Shown here: in pieces, positions 45,779 to 56,771 of the stretch
How the letters are laid out: every line of letters begins with the position of its first letter
Numbering within the stretch: the stretch's first letter is position 1
From: an uncultured Clostridia bacterium
GTDB taxonomy: Bacteria; Bacillota; Clostridia; Christensenellales; Borkfalkiaceae
Length of the DNA: 64,000 bases
Assembly: GCA_944368925.1 (NCBI GenBank)
Contig: CALVXG010000011.1
Location: forward strand, 1-64,000
Direction of reading: 5' to 3'
The notes under the pieces: generated by a model
Database searches by the model: none
Seen by the model: only the letters and a program-made list of their open reading frames with translations
What the model was told of the DNA's origin: nothing
Position numbers and translations under genes: made by a program

Positions 45779-47593
45779 TTAAGACTCTTTCAGTACAAAT
45801 TTATAGTTCAGCCTGCCGTACGGCGCGCTGTCTCCCTGCGTGTACAACAGCATGACATCCGATGAAAAATCCACGTTGTCCGTCACTTTCAGCTCAAAGG
45901 TCGAAGCGTTTCCTATCGCTTCCTTCGGAATGCACAGCTGCATGTATTTTCCGCTTACCAGCGTTCTTGCTTCCCCGACTTTCTGCGCAGAATCTCCCAA
46001 ACTTTCGATAAAAGCATAATTTTCCGAACGGCTTTTGTTGATCACATAATCGTAACCCTCGGTGCCGCTCTGCGTTTTCAGCCATACGTTCATCCAGTTT
46101 GCGTCCGACGGCTTCGTAATATCTTCCGCCGCCGTAAGCAGCAGATAGACGTTTTCCGCATCTTCCGCCACCCGTATTTCCGTTATGTCGTTCCGCTTGC
46201 TGTCGTTCATGTAAACGTCGCTGCCGTCGCTGTTGACAAAACTGCGCGTCTTTTTCCCCGCAAAATCGGCGACGCCGGACGTCACACCGCTCCATGCGCC
46301 GAGAATCGAAGATGCCGACAATTCCGCCTCTTCAACGGCGATCCCGTCCCCCTGTTCCCCTTTAAACAGCCGCATGTTGCGGATCATCTGCATATAGAAA
46401 TTATCTCCGTAGAATCCGCTGATCGGTTCAATATCCCGCGAAAATTCCGGCGTGGCACAATCGAAAAAGACAACCGTATTTCCGACCCCTTCCACTTCCG
46501 TCGCCAGTTTCAGCGCCGACCACTCGTTCCATTCCGTCAAAATCACGATCCGCGCATCCGACGCAAGCGCCACATCCCATTGCTCCTGGAAATTTGCGCC
46601 TTCCGCGACGCGGTCCTTGCTGTTTTTGTCCGCACTCGTGTAGCCTCTGCCCCAGTTTTTGTTGTAATAATCGATACCGTTGGGGCTTTCTTCGTATTGT
46701 ACGGAATCACTCATGTGCATGCCCGCGTTCTGCGCCACCGACACGCTGATCACGCCGTTATGCACCGGCTGCGGCCGCGTAAACTCAATCCAGGGAAACC
46801 CGTTGTCCTTGAACGGTTCGTTCGGCCACTGGCTCGCACGTATGTAAAAGGTCTCCCGCACCGCTTTCGGCAAATAGACCATCTCGTCCGTACGCATCGT
46901 GATCCACGGCTTCCCTTCCGCATTTCTGCCTTCGTCCGTATCGCAGAACCACAGTTCACGATACCTGCCGTCTTTATAAAGAAAATCATACAACTGCTGC
47001 ACCCGCTCGTACGAGCGCGTATTCGTCATGAACATGATCTTAGGCACTTTATACCCCGCCGCGCGGTATGTTTCCAGAATTTCCAGCAACACGCTGAGCG
47101 GCTCTTTATAAATATTGTTATTGGTCGCATCGACCGCGAGAAAGTCCATGCCCGCCGCAATAAACATCTGCACATGCCGCTCCACGACCCAGTAATCCTG
47201 CATGTTGTAATACCCGAACAGCGGCTCCGCGTAAAAATGCATTTTCAGAAAGGGCGAACCCGACCCCGAATAAATATCCGCAAAGTCCATCTTCGACATG
47301 TCGTAGATGCCCTCAAAATAGGGATCCCCTTCGTCCGAATAATCGTTCCCCAGCCACAACAGATAAAATATCCCCACCAGTTTTCCGTTCGTTTCTCCGG
47401 CAGGGAGGATCTGCCTGCCCAACGCATCCGTGCCGCAGAGCGCTTCCCGCACATTGTCGCGCTCCTGCAGCGGTTCAATCGAAATCTTTTCCGTCATCTC
47501 TTCTTCTCCGCTCTCTTCCGTCGGATTGCATGCGCCGCAAAGCAACACCATACATGCACACAGCAACAGACAAATCCATCTCTTAATTCGCAT
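45779..47593 (-). CDS. Surface lipoprotein, GH99/WbsX-like with CBM9-like C-terminal domain
   Basis: 604 residues. Lipobox LCGAC, Cys22. Conserved blocks: LVGIFYLLWLGND, EPLFGYYNMQDYWVVERHVQMF, FLAVDATNN, ILTEWNEWSALK and NWGRGYTSADKN. The C-terminal sandwich ends GDSAPYGRLNYKF. It differs from the other three by TEWNEWS in the active-site segment and by lacking the GIDFLV[FL]-type context only slightly, so it may prefer another linkage. It is the final gene of operon D, starting one base after the stop of its tandem neighbour 47595. The terminator stem at 45744-45778 directly follows. Confidence 0.75.
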   Translation of the reverse strand: MRIKRWICLLLCACMVLLCGACNPTEESGEEEMTEKISIEPLQERDNVREALCGTDALGRQILPAGETNGKLVGIFYLLWLGNDYSDEGDPYFEGIYDMSKMDFADIYSGSGSPFLKMHFYAEPLFGYYNMQDYWVVERHVQMFIAAGMDFLAVDATNNNIYKEPLSVLLEILETYRAAGYKVPKIMFMTNTRSYERVQQLYDFLYKDGRYRELWFCDTDEGRNAEGKPWITMRTDEMVYLPKAVRETFYIRASQWPNEPFKDNGFPWIEFTRPQPVHNGVISVSVAQNAGMHMSDSVQYEESPNGIDYYNKNWGRGYTSADKNSKDRVAEGANFQEQWDVALASDARIVILTEWNEWSALKLATEVEGVGNTVVFFDCATPEFSRDIEPISGFYGDNFYMQMIRNMRLFKGEQGDGIAVEEAELSASSILGAWSGVTSGVADFAGKKTRSFVNSDGSDVYMNDSKRNDITEIRVAEDAENVYLLLTAAEDITKPSDANWMNVWLKTQSGTEGYDYVINKSRSENYAFIESLGDSAQKVGEARTLVSGKYMQLCIPKEAIGNASTFELKVTDNVDFSSDVMLLYTQGDSAPYGRLNYKFVLKES

Positions 47594-47594
47594 T

Positions 47595-49481
47595 CTATAC
47601 CTTCCATTTGTAACTCAAACGCCCGATCGGCGCGCTGTCGCCGCTGACATAATAATCCATTATGTCTTCGGGATGCGTGATATGATCCGTCGCCTTGATC
47701 TTCAGCGTAAACGAATCGCCCAAACCGAGCATCGCCTTCGGCACCGCGATCTGCAGATACTTGCCGCCGACCAAATAGTCCGCCTGTCCGACCGTCTCAA
47801 ACGCATACCCGCCGATGCACTTTTCCACCGACGTCCTTTCTCCGTCCGGCGAACGGTTGATGACATACTGATATCCTTCAAACGCTTCCCCTTCGGCACC
47901 TTCCACGCCCAGCAGAACGTTCATCCACGTGAGATCCCCTGCTTCGTACGCGGTGATTGCCTCGGCGGCCGAAACCATGATATACAGATTATCCGCATCG
48001 TACGCAAGACGGATCTCGGAAATATCGTTGCGCGCGGAATCATCGTAATACGTATCCCGATCGGCGGCGTCCTTATAGTTGCGCACCACGGCGTCTCCCA
48101 CAAAATCGCGGAAAGATGTCTGCACGCTCTCCCATTGTTTGACAGAACCTTTTACGTCGACCGTCAGCTCCTGTCCCGTCACCGTTTCCCCTTCGCCCGT
48201 GCCTTTGTACGCGCGAATGTTCTTGATCATCTGCAAATAATAGTTGTCCCCGTATCCGCCTTTCATCGGCTCGATATCCCTGGAAAATTCTTCGTTGATC
48301 GTATCCACAAAGAAGACGCGGCGGTCGGGAAGATTCAGCCTGGAAGGCACTCCCGTCGTCACCGTGATGTCTTCATAAAATTTGACGGCGATCCACTCGT
48401 TCCAGCCCGTCACGAACACGGTGGACGGATCTTCCCGCAGCGCATTGTCCCACTGCTCCTGAAAATTCGCCCCCTCGTCCACTTTGGAGGGATCGTTCAC
48501 GCCCGCCTGCGCCGTGTATCCGCGCCCCCAATTCTCGTTATAATACGTTCCGCCCGATGCAGACGCCACGTCCTTGTACTGCACGGAATCGGAAAACGGC
48601 CAGCCCGGATGCTGCGATACGGAAACGCTCATCAACGTTCCGCCCGTCACTCCGCCTTTGGGGTATACCTTCTGACTGCGGTTAAAATCGATCCACGGGA
48701 ATCCGTCCTCTTTATCCGGCGTCCCCGGCCATTGGCTGGAACGGAAATCAAAGAAATTGCGGATCTCTTCCGAACACCCCGCCTTATTCGCACAGATGAT
48801 CAGCGGTTTCCCGTTCGGACAAAACCAAAGATCTTTGTACAGGCCCTTTTCGTACAGCTGCGAATACAACTGCGTCACGCGCTGCTCGGATTCCGTGTTG
48901 GTGTAAAACATGATCTTGGGCACCGCAAATCCCTGCGCCGCAAATTCTTCCATGATCGGGAACAAAACCTGCCACACCTGGTTGTAGGTAAACTGATTCG
49001 TCGCATCGAATACGAGAAAATCAATGCCCGCCATCGTGATCATTTCCATGTGCCTGCGCAAAACATACGGATCCTGCGCATTGTAGTACCCGAACAGCGG
49101 CTCCCCCCAGTAATGGAACTGATTGGGCGGCGACGACAAAATCTCCGTTCCGTCCCAGAACGCGTCCCCGAGCTCTTCCATCAATTTTGTCGCGTCATAA
49201 ATATCCGTCTGCTTGGTGCGCTCCTGCCCGTTCCACAAAAAATAAAATAACCCGACATATTTTTCTCCGTTCCTGCCGCTGACGGAGGGCACTTCCCTCC
49301 CCAGCGCATCCGTCGCCGTAAGACTGTTGACCGTCTGCTCACAGGTGTTGAGCAACACGATTTCATCTTCCTGCGGCTGTGGCTGCGGCGCAGGTTCCGA
49401 AGGCTTGCACGCCGAAAACATCGTAAACAAAAATACGGACGCACATGCCAGGCTTATCCACTTTTTTACCGTCTTTTTCAT
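47595..49481 (-). CDS. Surface lipoprotein, GH99/WbsX-like with CBM9-like C-terminal domain
   Basis: 628 residues. Signal peptide ends MFSAC, Cys25, followed by a PAPQPQPQ linker. Catalytic-domain blocks: YVGLFYFLWNG, GEPLFGYYNAQDPYVLRRHMEM, FLVFDATNQF and VTGWNEWIAVK. The C-terminal domain has ISEIRLAYDADNLYIMVSA, GYQYVINRSPDGERTSVE and GDSAPIGRLSYKWKV. It forms a tandem pair with 45779. The pair may act on different bonds of one glycan, because the regions around the WNEW motif differ. It lies 15 bp after the MalG-type permease of operon D. Confidence 0.75.
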   Translation of the reverse strand: MKKTVKKWISLACASVFLFTMFSACKPSEPAPQPQPQEDEIVLLNTCEQTVNSLTATDALGREVPSVSGRNGEKYVGLFYFLWNGQERTKQTDIYDATKLMEELGDAFWDGTEILSSPPNQFHYWGEPLFGYYNAQDPYVLRRHMEMITMAGIDFLVFDATNQFTYNQVWQVLFPIMEEFAAQGFAVPKIMFYTNTESEQRVTQLYSQLYEKGLYKDLWFCPNGKPLIICANKAGCSEEIRNFFDFRSSQWPGTPDKEDGFPWIDFNRSQKVYPKGGVTGGTLMSVSVSQHPGWPFSDSVQYKDVASASGGTYYNENWGRGYTAQAGVNDPSKVDEGANFQEQWDNALREDPSTVFVTGWNEWIAVKFYEDITVTTGVPSRLNLPDRRVFFVDTINEEFSRDIEPMKGGYGDNYYLQMIKNIRAYKGTGEGETVTGQELTVDVKGSVKQWESVQTSFRDFVGDAVVRNYKDAADRDTYYDDSARNDISEIRLAYDADNLYIMVSAAEAITAYEAGDLTWMNVLLGVEGAEGEAFEGYQYVINRSPDGERTSVEKCIGGYAFETVGQADYLVGGKYLQIAVPKAMLGLGDSFTLKIKATDHITHPEDIMDYYVSGDSAPIGRLSYKWKV

Positions 49482-49496: not shown

Positions 49497-50342
49497 TCAC
49501 AGTTTCATCCCCGACGCAAAATCGCCGTTGATAAAATATTTCAGACCGATCAGCGAAGTGATCGCCAACGGCACCCCCGCCAGAAGATACATCGCATACG
49601 CTACCCCCGGATTCGTCTTGTTGACCGACTCCGCAAGATATTTCAGCCGCGGCATCAGCGTCTGTATGCCGTCCGTACGGATAACCAGTGTCGGCCACAA
49701 AAAATCATTGTACATCAGACTGAACGTCCCCAAACCCTGGATAATCAAAACAGGCACCGCCAGCGGCAGCGTGATCTTCGCATACATCACAATATCGTTC
49801 GCTCCGTCCAACGTCGCGCTTTCAAAAAGCGATGCAGGCTGCTGCGTAAAAAACGTACGGAACAGGAACGTCGCCCCGACCTGCCCGCCCGCAATGCCAG
49901 GCAATATCAGCGCCCAGCGCGTATCGAACAAACCTAAATTCAATATGGTAAGATAGGATGGTGTCATCGTGAGTACGGACGGCACCATCATCAGCGCAAG
50001 AATCAGCGAAAACAATACCTCGCGCCCGAAAAAACGATGCCTCGAAAATACATACGCCGTCACCGAACTGAAAAAAACCACCCCGACCGTCGTAACGATA
50101 CAGACAAGAAGACTGTTGAACATGTTCCCCCAGATCCCCTCGAACGCCTCTACATAATTTCCCCACTGCGGATCGTACGGCAGCCGCCAGATATCCATCA
50201 TGTGCTCATAGGGAAGTTTCAGCGAATACAAAAACGTGATGACCAGCGGCATCAGAACCAACAGTATGATGATCGAAAGGGATATGTAAAGAAGGGTCTG
50301 CGCAACCGCGCCTTCAATGCCGTGTTTCCTGTGTTTCAACAT
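49497..50342 (-). CDS. CUT1 ABC sugar transporter permease, MalG type
   Basis: 281 residues, six helices starting at LLYISLSIIILLVLMPLVIT. EAA loop: LFESATLDGANDIVMYAKIT. The C-terminal end (FINGDFASGMKL) differs from the two other MalG-type proteins here, and the protein belongs to a different CUT1 subgroup that uses the large binding protein 55140. Starts 13 bp after the propeller-permease gene. Confidence 0.92.
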   Translation of the reverse strand: MLKHRKHGIEGAVAQTLLYISLSIIILLVLMPLVITFLYSLKLPYEHMMDIWRLPYDPQWGNYVEAFEGIWGNMFNSLLVCIVTTVGVVFFSSVTAYVFSRHRFFGREVLFSLILALMMVPSVLTMTPSYLTILNLGLFDTRWALILPGIAGGQVGATFLFRTFFTQQPASLFESATLDGANDIVMYAKITLPLAVPVLIIQGLGTFSLMYNDFLWPTLVIRTDGIQTLMPRLKYLAESVNKTNPGVAYAMYLLAGVPLAITSLIGLKYFINGDFASGMKL

Positions 50343-50355
50343 TCCGCCCCTCCTT

Positions 50356-52311
50356 TTAAAAATTGCTTTCCGTCTTCTGCGCCTTGAGATTGATCAGCGT
50401 CGCACCGAATACTACGATAAAGAGCAGCATCCCCATCGCCGCCGCCCTCCCGTATCCCGAACCGGAATTGAGCGTCATATACATCTGCAAAGCAGGTATG
50501 TTTGTCGCCGTGGTCTGCCCCGTCGTCATGTACACCCGCCCGAAATCCTGAATGGAATTGATAAACGTGATGATAAATACATACTTCAGCTGCGGCCGTA
50601 TCATCGGAAAATCAATATAGACAATGCTCTTTATCCACGAACACCCGTCCAGCTTCGCCGACTCCTTGTACGACTCCGGAACCGACATCAGCGCCCCGTA
50701 AAACAGTATGTACTGTCCTACCCAGGGCAACCCGATCAGCACGAGCGACATAAGTGCCGTCTTGTCGTTTCCCAGCCAGTCCACCCCTCCGCCTCCGAAT
50801 AACCCGACCAGCGAATTGAGCAGTCCCATCTCTCCGTAAATTCCCTTCGTCCAGATCAGCAAAACCGCCACGCCCGGCAAAATCCCCGGTATGTAGATCA
50901 GCACGCGCACCCAGTACTGCGCCTTTTTGCTGTTCAGCGCCAGAATAAACTCCGCAATCAGTACCGCAGGTATCAGCGCCTTCAGCAGATCCGTGACCAG
51001 GAATATCAGCATGTTCCCGATCCCGCCCGTAAAAAACGGATCTTTCAGCACCGCGACAAAATTTTCAAACCCCACGGGCCGCGTGTATACCCCCGGCACA
51101 TAGTCAAAAAACGAAAGGATCAGACCCCACACCGTCGGTATGTACATGAACAGTCCCAAAAGCACGAACGTGGGCAATATAAAAGCATAACTTTTCCAGC
51201 TCTTAATAAATCCCGTCCTGAAACGGCGCAGCTGCTTATGCAAACTCGCCCTGCGCCCCTCGTTTACGGAAAACCAGCCAAGCACCGCACCCGCGAGCGA
51301 AATTACCGCAAGTGCCAGCGTCACATACTTCGCCCAGCCGAAAAACAAGAGCGCGTCGACCGCCCCGTATTCGTAACACCGCGTTCTGAAATCACGGTAT
51401 TCCGAAAAGACGATCAGCCCGTCCTGCGTGAGCGTTATGCTCTGCACTTCCGTCGGTACGGGGATCTTCTGCACCTGCCCGCTTTCCAGCCCCACGATAA
51501 ACCCGTTTCCGCTGATGTTCGCGGCCGCAGCGTAGTCCAAAGACTCCTCCGCCGCAAACGCGCACAGCGACATGCCCGTATCGATCGTACGCAAAAGCTC
51601 CTTTCCCTCAAACACCGATATCGTCCCGACCGTATCCGCAACGATCAGTCTGCCTTCCGAAAAACCCAGCGCAAGCGGCTCGTACCGCACGGAAACATAC
51701 ACCGATGCGTTCAGCCCGCCCGCCGCGCTTTCTATCACATAAACATTATAATCGGTCGAAAGACCGTACAAAACTTTCTCACGGGGATGAATTTTTATGT
51801 CGCCGATCACGTTGCTCAGCGAAAGCGATTCGGCCTGCGCCTGCCCGGTATACTCCGAATAATGGTACACGACGCTGCCTTTCAGCCCGCCCTTCTTTGC
51901 CGCTATATACAGATCCGTCTCGTCCGCGTCCACCGAAAGCACCTGGTACGGCACTTCAAAACTCGCCTGTATCGCCCCGTCTTGCGCCGAAAATACGTCT
52001 ACCTTTCTCTCCGAAACATAGCTGACCACGATCCGTTCGGAAAGGACGATCACATCGCTCGTACGGTCCGTAAGCTCCGTTTTCCAGAGCCGCTCTCCGT
52101 CTTTGTACGCCGAAAGCGCTTTGGTATCGTCGGACACGTAGAAAACGTCTCCGCCCTTTTGCACGCTGACCGTCTGCACTCTCCCGGACGGCAGCAAAGA
52201 TTCCCCGTCATCCGAAGTAAATACAAACCCGAACACCGTCAGTCCCGCAAAAACCAAAAACGCCGCGATCGCCGCTATAAATAAAACCGTATTCCTCTTC
52301 AAAACGTTCAT
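50356..52311 (-). CDS. Fusion of an extracellular beta-propeller-like domain with a MalF-type permease
   Basis: The ATG at 52311 (651 residues) is chosen over a TTG at 52383 that lacks a ribosome binding site; GGGG lies about 9 nt upstream. TM1 (9-31) is followed by about 270 residues with repeating short beta segments: DVFYVSDDTKALSAYKDG, DVFSAQDGAIQASFEV, NVYVIESAAGG, TISVFEGKELL, GFIVGLESGQV. These resemble PQQ/WD40-type propeller blades. TM2 (about 329-348) returns to the cytoplasm. Residues 375-651 are a normal MalF-type permease with EAA loop YKESAKLDGCSWIKSIVYID (548-567). The propeller would therefore sit outside the cell on the transporter. Typical MalF proteins are about 300 residues (E. 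coli MalF about 510), so this extension is unusual. It could dock glycans or partner proteins, or gate the channel. Confidence 0.85.
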   Translation of the reverse strand: MNVLKRNTVLFIAAIAAFLVFAGLTVFGFVFTSDDGESLLPSGRVQTVSVQKGGDVFYVSDDTKALSAYKDGERLWKTELTDRTSDVIVLSERIVVSYVSERKVDVFSAQDGAIQASFEVPYQVLSVDADETDLYIAAKKGGLKGSVVYHYSEYTGQAQAESLSLSNVIGDIKIHPREKVLYGLSTDYNVYVIESAAGGLNASVYVSVRYEPLALGFSEGRLIVADTVGTISVFEGKELLRTIDTGMSLCAFAAEESLDYAAAANISGNGFIVGLESGQVQKIPVPTEVQSITLTQDGLIVFSEYRDFRTRCYEYGAVDALLFFGWAKYVTLALAVISLAGAVLGWFSVNEGRRASLHKQLRRFRTGFIKSWKSYAFILPTFVLLGLFMYIPTVWGLILSFFDYVPGVYTRPVGFENFVAVLKDPFFTGGIGNMLIFLVTDLLKALIPAVLIAEFILALNSKKAQYWVRVLIYIPGILPGVAVLLIWTKGIYGEMGLLNSLVGLFGGGGVDWLGNDKTALMSLVLIGLPWVGQYILFYGALMSVPESYKESAKLDGCSWIKSIVYIDFPMIRPQLKYVFIITFINSIQDFGRVYMTTGQTTATNIPALQMYMTLNSGSGYGRAAAMGMLLFIVVFGATLINLKAQKTESNF

Positions 52312-52386: not shown

Positions 52387-55116
52387 TTAATCTTCTTTTC
52401 TGCGCAGGCCGATCACCGCGGCACCGGCCGCCGCCAATACCAAAGCGCCCGCCGCGAAAGAACCGCCGTACAGCAAGGATCCGCTGCATCCACCTTTCTC
52501 CGCCGTATCCGACGGATCGTCCGTTCCCGAGCCGCCTTGCTCTGCCGTCACCGTAATCCTGATCTCTTCGCTGAACAGGCTCCCGACGCGCACATAGATC
52601 GTCACTTCGCCCTCTTTGACTGCCGTGACTTTGCCGTTTGCGTCCACCGAAGCGATGCGGTCGTCTCCGCTCGCATACGTGGGCTTGACGTCCGAAGGAT
52701 CCACCGAGGCCGAAATCTGATACGTTTCCCCGACTTTCAGCGTTTTAGATTTTTCCGTAACCGTCAGACCGCCGATCACCGTCACTTCACAGGTCGCGCT
52801 CATTCCGTCTACCGTGTACGTGATCGTCGTCTTGCCGCTTGCTATCGCCGTAACCGTTCCGTCGCTGCCGACCGTCGCCACCGCCGTGTCCGAACTGGTC
52901 CATTCCGCCGTCTCCGCCACATACGAATTCGGGTTCGTCTTGCCCGTCAGACGGAAACTCGTCCCCGCCTTCATCTGATGCGACGTCCTGTCGATCTCAA
53001 CACCGTACAGCTTCCCGACGTTGACGTTCTCCACCGCAAGCTCCGCTTTCGCCGAATTCGCCGCAATCGTGTTGCCCAGTCCGATCGCTATGTTCCAGTT
53101 GCCTTCCGCTCCCGCAGATACCGCAGACCAATCAAACGTAAGCGTATACGGCCCGACGTAATCGTACGCCGATCCGCCCGGATACGTCATGTTCTCGCTT
53201 CCGTCCGGAACTTCACCCTCCGTAAATACGGGCGTAAACGCAATGCAGAATTTATCCGCATCCTTCCACATCTTTACCTGGATGCGCGTGCCGTCGCAGA
53301 ACGCGCGCGCAAAAGCATTCGCAAATTTATCCGTTCCCGTCAGCTCCCCTTTGTTTTCGGGTGTCTGCAAATCGCTGACCCTCCCGCCGATACCCGTCTG
53401 ATAAGGCAGCATGAATTTCAGCCCGAAGCCCCACCATTCGTTGTTTGTGCTCAGATTTACCTGCAATCCGCCCGGCGCTCCCATCGCAAAATCGGCCGCC
53501 GTCAACGTATCGGCATCGCCCGCAACCATCGCTATGCTCAGATACCTGCCAAACTGATTGGCATACGTCGTGTTGTTCGCGTCGTATTTATTGATAAAAT
53601 CAAACGTCACCGCCTTCTCGAACGTAATGTCCGTCCCTACGACCGCATACGCCGCGCCGCCCTGGATCGACCCGTTCAAGGAAATTCCCTCGTCCTCGGA
53701 CGTAAACCCGTCTCCGCCTATGATCACCCCGTCGGAATACAGATAATGTACGTCATTTTCATGCACGTCCTGCGGTTTTTCGTACGCGGTCACCGTAATT
53801 TCACACGTCGCTTTCAGCTCCAGATCCCCGCTTTCAAAGTTCTGCACTTTCGCCGTGATCGTCGCCGTCCCTACACTCTTCGCTTCCAGAACGCCGCCGT
53901 TGACCGTCACCACTTCATCGTCCGACGTCGTCCAAATCACATTCAGATTCAAGGGATTCGTCGTCGCCGTCAGATTGGAAAACTCACCGACCTGCATCTC
54001 TTTTTCGGATACGTTCAACGTAATATTGTTGGCAACCGTTATATACGCTTCGCCCTTTCTTCCGTCTTCCGCCGTGACCAGTACTTTCGTCGTCCCCGCT
54101 TTGAGCGCCGTCACAAGGCCCGTATCCGATACGCTCGCCACCGCGCCGTCCTCCACTTCATAGGTCACGTTGTCTACCGCCGCCGACGTCGTTACGTCTT
54201 TCGCCGTCAATTGTTTGGTCTGCTCCGGTTTGAGAAATACCGAATCCGGTTCCACCGACAGCCCGGGCAGTTCCGCTTCGATCGCTGCAATGGACGCGTC
54301 CACCGAACGCTCCGCCGCGTTCATGTTCGCAAATTCAAACCCGATATAGTACGGAGACTGATTGCTCGCATCCTGTACCATATCCGACAGAGGAAAACTG
54401 ATCTTCGAATTGCTGATCGCCGGACGTTCCGCCGTACGGTCAACCGTGATCGATACGTAAAGATGATCGACTCCGTTCACCTTTTCCGTCCCGATCTCCA
54501 CCGTCACGGGCTTGTTCATCGCATACGCCCATCCGATGTCCGTTATCCCGTCTCCGTGCGTATTGCCGTACATGGAGTCGGTATTGACAATATCGCGCCT
54601 GCCGAACGTGGAAAGATTGACCATGCTCCTGTGATTTCCGTCCCCGTCCGTGGCAAGATCGGTCGACGTGAACAAATGAAGCGTCACCCCGTTCCCGCTC
54701 GATCTCGAATTCCTGAAATCCGCCGCATTGAAACTTCCGCTGCTCTTGTCTGCCTGCGCAAAGAACATCGAAAAATACACCTGCGTTTTCAAATCGCCGC
54801 CGACCAGCCCACTGTAATCGGCATTGACCGTGAAGTTCGCCGTGACTTTGCTGCCGAGCGGATAGCCGTGATCATAGACGACTACCGTACGGCTGTCCTT
54901 CTGCTTTCCGGCAACCGTCACCCCGTCCTCCGCAGCCGTCAGCGCGGCCGTGTTCGTCCCGATCGGTTCCCCGCTCTCCCCCAGCGTCGTATCCGTCAGA
55001 AGCACAAATTCGTCCGTGTCTTCGGCCGCATACGCGGGAAGCAGCGCAAGGCACGTCATCACACAAAACAACAATGCCAGAACCGCGATCCATACTTGTT
55101 TGGTTTTCGTTCTCAT
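52387..55116 (-). CDS. Membrane-anchored surface protein with Big_2 Ig-like domains
   Basis: 909 residues. Signal peptide MRTKTKQVWIAVLALLFCVM ... PAYAAED, preceded by AAAGGAGG. Two large jelly-roll-like regions (about 30-285 and 465-710) are separated and followed by Big_2-type Ig domains (SVSDTGLVTALKAGTTKVLVTA, VTVNGGVLEAKSVGTATITAK, ATVGSDGTVTAIASGKTTITY, ASVDANGKVTAVKEGEVTIYV). The tail is EKGGCSGSLLYGG, a hydrophobic helix and LRRKED, a Cys-containing retention signal like those of 17081 and 10974. No catalytic motif. Its place between the binding lipoprotein and the propeller-permease suggests a direct role in presenting glycan to the importer. Confidence 0.83.
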   Translation of the reverse strand: MRTKTKQVWIAVLALLFCVMTCLALLPAYAAEDTDEFVLLTDTTLGESGEPIGTNTAALTAAEDGVTVAGKQKDSRTVVVYDHGYPLGSKVTANFTVNADYSGLVGGDLKTQVYFSMFFAQADKSSGSFNAADFRNSRSSGNGVTLHLFTSTDLATDGDGNHRSMVNLSTFGRRDIVNTDSMYGNTHGDGITDIGWAYAMNKPVTVEIGTEKVNGVDHLYVSITVDRTAERPAISNSKISFPLSDMVQDASNQSPYYIGFEFANMNAAERSVDASIAAIEAELPGLSVEPDSVFLKPEQTKQLTAKDVTTSAAVDNVTYEVEDGAVASVSDTGLVTALKAGTTKVLVTAEDGRKGEAYITVANNITLNVSEKEMQVGEFSNLTATTNPLNLNVIWTTSDDEVVTVNGGVLEAKSVGTATITAKVQNFESGDLELKATCEITVTAYEKPQDVHENDVHYLYSDGVIIGGDGFTSEDEGISLNGSIQGGAAYAVVGTDITFEKAVTFDFINKYDANNTTYANQFGRYLSIAMVAGDADTLTAADFAMGAPGGLQVNLSTNNEWWGFGLKFMLPYQTGIGGRVSDLQTPENKGELTGTDKFANAFARAFCDGTRIQVKMWKDADKFCIAFTPVFTEGEVPDGSENMTYPGGSAYDYVGPYTLTFDWSAVSAGAEGNWNIAIGLGNTIAANSAKAELAVENVNVGKLYGVEIDRTSHQMKAGTSFRLTGKTNPNSYVAETAEWTSSDTAVATVGSDGTVTAIASGKTTITYTVDGMSATCEVTVIGGLTVTEKSKTLKVGETYQISASVDPSDVKPTYASGDDRIASVDANGKVTAVKEGEVTIYVRVGSLFSEEIRITVTAEQGGSGTDDPSDTAEKGGCSGSLLYGGSFAAGALVLAAAGAAVIGLRRKED

Positions 55117-55139: not shown

Positions 55140-56771
55140 TTACAGATTCGGATCCATCTCCGGCGTCAGATACGCGTCGCTCTTCCAGCCCAACTGCTTG
55201 AAATAGTCCGGTATGTCGTTCTGGAATGCCTTCGTGAGCTGTTCCCCGAATTTCTGTACGGTGATGTCTCCGTTAAACATATTCTTGCAGAGCGCTTCGA
55301 ACGTCTGATACGTCGGGCCGTTCATGCTGCAAAGATTGCCGAAAAACTGCCCCACGGGATTGTTGTGGCACAGACCCGGAAATTCATAATCTTTTGCAGG
55401 ATAGATCTCCACAGGCGTATCCACTTCCTTTACCAGCGAATTTCCGCTGATAAACGCACCCTGCTGCTTCAAACTTTCGTTGTAAATGTCCTGTCCCTCT
55501 TTCGAACCCCAGAACATCATGAAATCCATGACAAGATCGTTCTGCTTTTTGTCCTTTTTCACGACGCCGTACCAGCCGACCGCACCGCCGACCGAACGCA
55601 CCGTGTCCGCATCCGGCTTCGCTTCGCCCTCTCCCGTCATCGGCGGAGCCGGGAAAAACCCGATCTCAAACTGGTTCGCATCCGGCCTTTGGGCAAAAAT
55701 TTGCTTATACGTATTGAAGAAATCCGTCGTATTGAACACCATCGCGGCATTCCCGCCCCAGAACAGTTCCTCCGCCTGATAATAGTTGTTCGAAATAAAA
55801 TTGTCCTGGCAATACGTCGGTATCAGCTTTTTCAGATTGGTCATCATCGCCTGGTATTTTGCGTCGGAAGGCGTGATCTCGTTGTTCATGACCGCCTGGT
55901 AAAAACGCAGCATGTTCACCGTGTATTTGGACGGAGAATCGTTGTCCTTATCCGTAAGATCAAGCTCCCAGTCCGCATCGATGTCCGGATCGTAACAATA
56001 ATCCCCCGCGATCGCGTGGATCTCGTCTGCGATCCCCCTGTAATACTGGTCCCCGTACATGTTCAGAAGCCAGCTCATCGCCCCCGTCGTGTACGTCGCT
56101 CCTCCCGCAACAAACGGCGTCTTGTCCTGCGTGTTCGATTCGATCTGCGCACAAAATTCCAGCAGTTCGTCCCACGTCGCAGGAACTTTATCCGTTCCGT
56201 CTTCGTTGGTCAGCCCCGCCTGACGCCAGATATCCTTATTGTAGAAAAAGAAACTCATATTCGTCGTGAAACTCATCGAATAAATGCCCGAACGGTCTAC
56301 CGACAAGGGATAGGCTTCTTCGTTCAATACGTCCTTCCACGCCGTGTTTCCGTTATACGGATTCGGCTTGACAAGATACGAACTGTAATCCACCATCTTC
56401 GTCGTCAGATATGAATTGCTGATGAGAAGCGTCTGCACGATGTCCGCATCCGTGACCGACGCGCCCCCCGCAAACTGCGAATCCAGCCAGTCTTTATACG
56501 TCGATGACGTCTGCCCTTCTACCTTGACCGTCGTTTCCGGATGTTTCTCTTCGTACGCGTCCGCCACCGCCTGCAACGCAATGTCTTCGAACGGATAGTC
56601 CTTGATCGGCAAATTAATGTTGATCGTCCCATTATAATCGATCGTCTCCGTCGTTTCTCCTCCGCCGCCCGGCGTTACGTCCGTACCTTTCTTCCCGCAT
56701 CCGACAACCGAAAATACCGTTCCGATCATCATCAGCATCGCCATCATAACCGCCGCTGCTTTCGCCTTCAT
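55140..56771 (-). CDS. Extracellular sugar-binding lipoprotein of operon D
   Basis: 543 residues, larger than the other two binding proteins. Signal peptide ends SVVGC, Cys25, followed by a Gly/Thr linker. Features: NINLPIKDYPFEDIALQAVADAYEEKHP, MSFFFYNKDIWRQAGL and WDELLEFCAQI, typical of extracellular sugar-binding proteins. An aromatic-rich C-terminal half (NNYYQAEELFWGGNAAMVF) follows. It is expected to serve the propeller-permease and the MalG-type protein. The next gene downstream is the Ig-like surface protein. Confidence 0.92.
   Translation of the reverse strand: MKAKAAAVMMAMLMMIGTVFSVVGCGKKGTDVTPGGGGETTETIDYNGTININLPIKDYPFEDIALQAVADAYEEKHPETTVKVEGQTSSTYKDWLDSQFAGGASVTDADIVQTLLISNSYLTTKMVDYSSYLVKPNPYNGNTAWKDVLNEEAYPLSVDRSGIYSMSFTTNMSFFFYNKDIWRQAGLTNEDGTDKVPATWDELLEFCAQIESNTQDKTPFVAGGATYTTGAMSWLLNMYGDQYYRGIADEIHAIAGDYCYDPDIDADWELDLTDKDNDSPSKYTVNMLRFYQAVMNNEITPSDAKYQAMMTNLKKLIPTYCQDNFISNNYYQAEELFWGGNAAMVFNTTDFFNTYKQIFAQRPDANQFEIGFFPAPPMTGEGEAKPDADTVRSVGGAVGWYGVVKKDKKQNDLVMDFMMFWGSKEGQDIYNESLKQQGAFISGNSLVKEVDTPVEIYPAKDYEFPGLCHNNPVGQFFGNLCSMNGPTYQTFEALCKNMFNGDITVQKFGEQLTKAFQNDIPDYFKQLGWKSDAYLTPEMDPNL

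Follow-up and report, generated by a model that had tools for sequence, protein, structure and literature searches.

Results

A MalF-type permease gene with an N-terminal propeller

The window analysed here is a 64,000-nucleotide stretch of contig CALVXG010000011.1 from an uncultured Clostridia bacterium; at 50356–52311, on the reverse strand like every feature located below, it carries a gene whose 651-residue product joins a β-propeller to a MalF-type permease (open frame and Pfam, with homologues sharing the build). Translation runs without an internal stop from an ATG at 52311, and the initiating methionine aligns with one in two close homologues. The protein comprises a first helix TM1 (residues 3–32, 52216–52305), an extracellular propeller (residues 47–314, 51370–52173), a second helix TM2 (residues 315–349, 51265–51369) and a permease core (residues 372–651, 50359–51198). 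Both helices are assigned from an AlphaFold2 model and from hydropathy, which places one at the N terminus and another near residues 321–348, both ahead of the usual permease helices. Basic residues precede TM1 and come after TM2, so by the positive-inside rule the propeller lies outside the cell. We are virtually certain of the order of parts, namely TM1, a propeller of about 270 residues, TM2 and a complete MalF-type CUT1 permease, all in one gene. A frameshift or mis-join of two genes is ruled out by the single open frame and by the identical fusion in many genomes; in a sample of 297 genomes from the order, each of the 11 matches at E ≤ 1e-70 comes from an open frame of 660–741 residues. 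The original prediction, that a whole MalF-type permease is joined to a propeller held outside the cell between two extra helices, is borne out by Pfam, AlphaFold2 and Foldseek.

The permease core is recognized by Pfam as BPD_transp_1 (residues 456–635, E 1.2e-11, 45.2 bits against a cut-off of 26.4). With the fusion protein as query, sequence comparison with solved structures ranks AlgM1 and MalF highest and SugA lower; by fold, the permease half of the model, which is predicted at lower confidence than the propeller (pTM 0.49), is matched by Foldseek to SugA (7caf_A, TMt 0.78). An EAA loop, a motif of such permeases, can be matched by eye to E-x-A-x3-G-x9-I-x2-P at E550–P569 (50605–50664), two residues away from where it had been predicted at 548–567; a strict EAA regular expression finds no match in the protein. 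Membership of the MalF-type CUT1 group is further indicated by the operon, which supplies both a MalG-type partner permease of 281 residues (49497–50342, Pfam BPD_transp_1) and a solute-binding protein (SBP).

The propeller fold persists at low sequence identity

The AlphaFold2 model of the window protein, built with 16 family sequences, contains a helix at residues 3–32, 27 strands over residues 47–314 and a helix at 315–349, with block-mean pLDDT values of 76–92 over residues 51–310. This is the propeller-type fold that the original prediction had suggested looking for by structure prediction. The strands make up seven sheets, six four-stranded and one three-stranded, that repeat about every 40 residues. 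A Foldseek search of solved structures puts the WD40 propeller WDR55 at the top (TMt 0.74), and YxaL and BamB are among the further hits. A profile search of the propeller region, likewise proposed at the outset, gave a divided answer: the window protein scores 19.2 bits for PQQ_2, below the curated cut-off of 27.6, and its relatives do match, at E ≤ 0.01 in 16 of 23 family members and above the cut-off in two further homologues (L125 and L129, 31.0 and 28.3 bits). A second model, for the L046 relative from Pumilibacter intestinalis, a named species, again shows a helix, 27 strands and a helix, and Foldseek again gives propellers, at only 14% identity to the window propeller. On these two models the domain appears PQQ/BamB-like. 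It probably has seven blades, as in the best matches of the window model, although high-ranking matches of the L046 model include designed eight-bladed proteins and BamB. The outer strand wanting in the last blade could derive from residues 33–46, where the model is unsure, in which case both membrane links would sit on one face of the propeller and the other face would point outward.

Fused permeases form a scattered family in Bacillota

Two more proteins of the same build are encoded in the same genome, on contigs C13 and C23, and among its 30 listed permease matches three lie in frames of 674–682 residues and 27 in frames of 305–360 residues. The N-terminal part alone, used as query, has matches in 3 of 61 related genomes. 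Across wider samples, the fused family occurs in 7 of 297 genomes of the order; fusions make up 8 of the 10 listed matches in a class sample (391 genomes) and 4 of the 10 in a phylum sample (398 genomes), the latter being three from the window genome and one from outside its class. Homologues occur in other Bacillota families, one of them beyond the window's class. A scan of genome contigs confirmed at least 414 relatives; among the best 80 of these, which were kept, 15 belong to the fused family (L044–L057 and L060), 14 with the extension and one (L057) whose contig stops partway through it.

Four other MalF-like permeases (L071, L077, L084 and L088), from Myxococcota, Lentisphaerota, Kiritimatiellota and Armatimonadota, carry an N-terminal part that looks SBP-like by eye, plus an extra joining helix. 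They were rejected as further members: the N-terminal parts of L071, L077 and L088 are of this SBP-like kind and their cores fall elsewhere in a permease-core tree, and L084 looks like the cut end of an SBP–permease fusion, its core also outside the fused group.

The tree (81 cores, short search) places all 26 fused cores on one side of a branch with SH-aLRT support of 96, the remainder being 51 ordinary permeases and these four SBP-fused cores. Ordinary permeases were taken from 138 matches by score (45–190), suitable length and one per locus, to a maximum of 45, with six added later. A single gain of the propeller would be enough to explain this tree.

Within the family the propeller diverges about twice as fast as the permease. 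Mean identity over the 26 members is 0.19 for propellers and 0.50 for cores, and within five subgroups it is 34–49% for the propeller against 65–86% for the core. No propeller column is invariant in 23 aligned rows, G268 alone being nearly so, and no propeller face is conserved in 14 sequences (top minus bottom 0.02, p 0.27). This pattern makes a catalytic or ligand site common to the family less likely, and would fit a structural or partner-binding role.

Constant and inconstant partners in the operon

For a survey of neighbourhoods we used 26 operons in which permease, SBP and MalG are all in view, dropping repeat copies of one operon and leaving out L044, L054 and L149 (a gene lost at the contig end) and L057 (permease start absent). 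Gene order is SBP–MalF–MalG or MalF–MalG–SBP, and an Ig-like gene sits between SBP and MalF in the window and in L045. The steady partners in this survey are MalG and an insert-bearing SBP, which the original prediction had mentioned (as the 55140 protein) only as something to co-fold with the fusion. The same cannot be said of the Ig-like (Big_2) surface protein that lies between SBP and permease in the window (52387–55116, Pfam), which had been put forward as a protein the propeller might dock: a relative occurs in only 2 of the 26 operons, the window included, and it is ruled out as a general partner. The C terminus of this protein, like those in L050, L054, L060, L141 and L142, has a stretch rich in Cys and Gly followed by a single hydrophobic helix and a basic tail, and from sequence this looks like a common cell-surface sorting signal.

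Downstream of MalG lie two GH99-like lipoproteins (47595–49481 and 45779–47593), assigned from sub-threshold Pfam matches of 21.5 and 19.9 bits against a cut-off of 33. Relatives are found in 17 of the 26 neighbourhoods (phmmer, E ≤ 1e-4; diverged copies may escape and some contigs are short), which rules them out as an obligate partner. The pair and its relatives stay below the Pfam cut-off, a search of solved structures at E ≤ 0.1 returns nothing for the first lipoprotein, and together they are possibly an undescribed glycosidase family. In three other neighbourhoods (L151, L153 and L155) a DUF624 (YesL-type) gene, assigned by Pfam in L155, follows MalG and is itself followed by large proteins with a common start, of which the 973-residue L155 protein has no Pfam match at E ≤ 0.05. 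Inspection by eye of the fetched neighbourhoods found no steady regulator gene beside the fused permeases. OB_MalK has one match above and one below the cut-off in the window's genome, both elsewhere than the operon, so the importer's ATPase is probably a shared MalK-type protein.

A dedicated solute-binding protein carries its own insert

The partner SBP of the window is a 543-residue lipoprotein (55140–56771, Pfam SBP_bac_1) with a family-specific insert at residues 242–279 (55935–56048), defined by alignment with 18 other SBPs. Partner SBPs are 512–617 residues long (n = 26), against 447–533 (n = 14) for those beside the same genome's ordinary permeases; the latter were detected in 14 of 20 such regions using a profile built from partner SBPs, with start codons trimmed in both sets. 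A DQYxR...GDY-like pattern is present in all 26 partners and in none of the 18 others, and the shorter DQYxR-like pattern alone in the 26 partners and one of the 18. Twelve of the others have nothing in the main part of the insert, and 6 have 4–19 residues there without the pattern, including those beside the nearest ordinary permeases. Across partners Y238, D240, Q241 and R244 never vary, and G255, D256, D264 and W267 hardly do (numbering one below that of the full protein). The insert, DQYxR...GDYxY...D..W in the window SBP and its relatives (L045–L060, L141–L155), is acidic and aromatic. One partner, from the out-of-class genome G1017 (L155:6368–7906), is without the lipobox cysteine, which is nearly invariant elsewhere, and may therefore be soluble.

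Searches of four overlapping samples (297, 391, 13 and 17 genomes) found no intact SBP of the insert family away from a propeller permease. In the order sample the 10 full-length SBP matches are the 10 partners, with one fragment at a contig end (G123:C60), and in the seventh fused genome (G157) the sequence ends before any SBP; in the class sample the 6 SBP-bearing genomes are the 6 with fusions. Because these samples share genomes and the profile already contained almost every SBP recovered, this search tests only for SBPs without a propeller. Correlation of distances is equivocal on co-divergence. Given the permease, propeller and SBP correlate at r 0.65 on raw distances, 0.43 on Kimura distances and 0.24 on ranks, against 0.54, 0.54 and 0.57 for MalG and SBP, such that the propeller–SBP value does not exceed the MalG–SBP value on the Kimura and rank scales; given permease and MalG together it drops to 0.10 on ranks (p 0.06).

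Discussion

Because the constant partner besides MalG is a single SBP family with its own insert, we consider docking of that SBP the most likely role for the propeller, at a confidence somewhat short of even. In this reading the fusion serves as MalF in a CUT1 importer of oligosaccharides, its propeller held outside the cell between TM1 and TM2. In eight-helix MalF proteins the first extracellular loop lies between these same helices, and it is at this place that the two helices would tether the propeller to the permease, allowing it to hold or orient the cognate SBP over the permease. The association has a less specific reading, in that inheritance from a common ancestor could be enough to link insert and propeller. 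The insert might also have another role, shaping the site for the sugar or binding calcium.

The propeller might bind extracellular glycan or cell wall, capturing polymer or anchoring the importer with no contact to the SBP. Glycosidase-like genes are indeed common in these operons (the GH99-like relatives above, and GH94 in L046), and L129 has a weak match to a carrageenase propeller (24.2 bits against a cut-off of 26.8); family-wide, however, no propeller residue or face is conserved beyond the near-invariant G268, and we regard such binding as unlikely. The same lack of a conserved site counts against a sensor or gate, in which a ligand or signalling partner bound by the propeller would alter transporter activity, as does the lack of a steady neighbouring regulator. 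Extracellular propellers can act as signalling partners, for example LpqB with MtrAB as described in PMC13068155, yet here we consider this role quite improbable.

We give slightly less credence again to a scaffolding role, with the propeller holding surface enzymes or other surface proteins, for instance the GH99-like lipoproteins or the Ig-like protein. Both kinds of gene adjoin the fusion in the window and the GH99-like genes recur, but the neighbourhoods are without a GH99-like relative in 9 of 26 cases and without an Ig-like relative in 24 of 26 (some contigs being short). We rate lowest the possibility that the propeller is a plain spacer, a structural element lacking any specific partner. 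Propeller identity falls as low as 8% where permease cores stay at or above 27%, as a spacer might allow; against this, all close family members seen retain the propeller or are cut inside it by a contig end, and its fold is kept in the distant P. intestinalis protein.

P2 of enteric MalF, which in E. coli lies between TM3 and TM4, is the most familiar case of a large extracellular domain on a CUT1 permease. MalF of MalFGK2–MalE resembles the fusion in its homologous core (E 2e-10, residues 406–646), its MalG and SBP partners and the presence of a large extracellular domain. The loop at the TM3–TM4 place is short in the model of the fusion (about residues 400–424), and the propeller instead lies between TM1 and TM2. 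As an SBP dock it would play the role of P2 with a different fold at a different place and no homology. There are published precedents: P2 is reported to contact MalE, and the β-propeller AztD, working with the AztABC importer, passes zinc to an SBP; besides PMC13068155, the literature drawn on comprised PMC8134467, PMC6689063 and PMC3150292. AztD is akin to the proposed dock, although it is a separate zinc metallochaperone outside the permease, and the propeller here is inside the permease chain. SugA of LpqY–SugABC is the best solved fold match to the permease half of the L046 model too (8hpr_A, TMt 0.75), but its chains in 7caf and 8hpr (277–284 residues) are too short to include a propeller. 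BamB, YxaL and other PQQ-type propellers share the fold, and PQQ_2 matches occur in relatives of the fusion; by the titles of their structure entries, BamB is part of the BAM complex and YxaL a plant growth-promoting factor, neither being joined to a transporter. An extracytoplasmic domain is joined to the permease in GlnPQ and OpuA and in L071, L077 and L088; there the joined domain is the SBP, whereas the present fusion carries a propeller and leaves the SBP to a gene of its own. The original prediction held that no characterised CUT1 permease is built this way, and we likewise found no described example of the architecture in the open-licence PMC literature searched: its component parts are already known, and no account of their combination turned up there.

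More tentatively than docking itself, we suggest that SBP recruitment evolved separately within type I ABC importers. A propeller receptor in the first extracellular loop of MalF would be matched to a conserved SBP insert and retained across a patchily distributed Bacillota lineage even as the propeller sequence changed almost beyond recognition. With its propeller permease and one insert-bearing SBP family, this group is a clear case in which to ask whether importers other than that of MalF have evolved dedicated SBP receptors. Were docking true, it would explain how a genome with about 30 MalF-like permease matches keeps its partners apart, and would aid the prediction of SBP–permease pairs in gut Clostridia.
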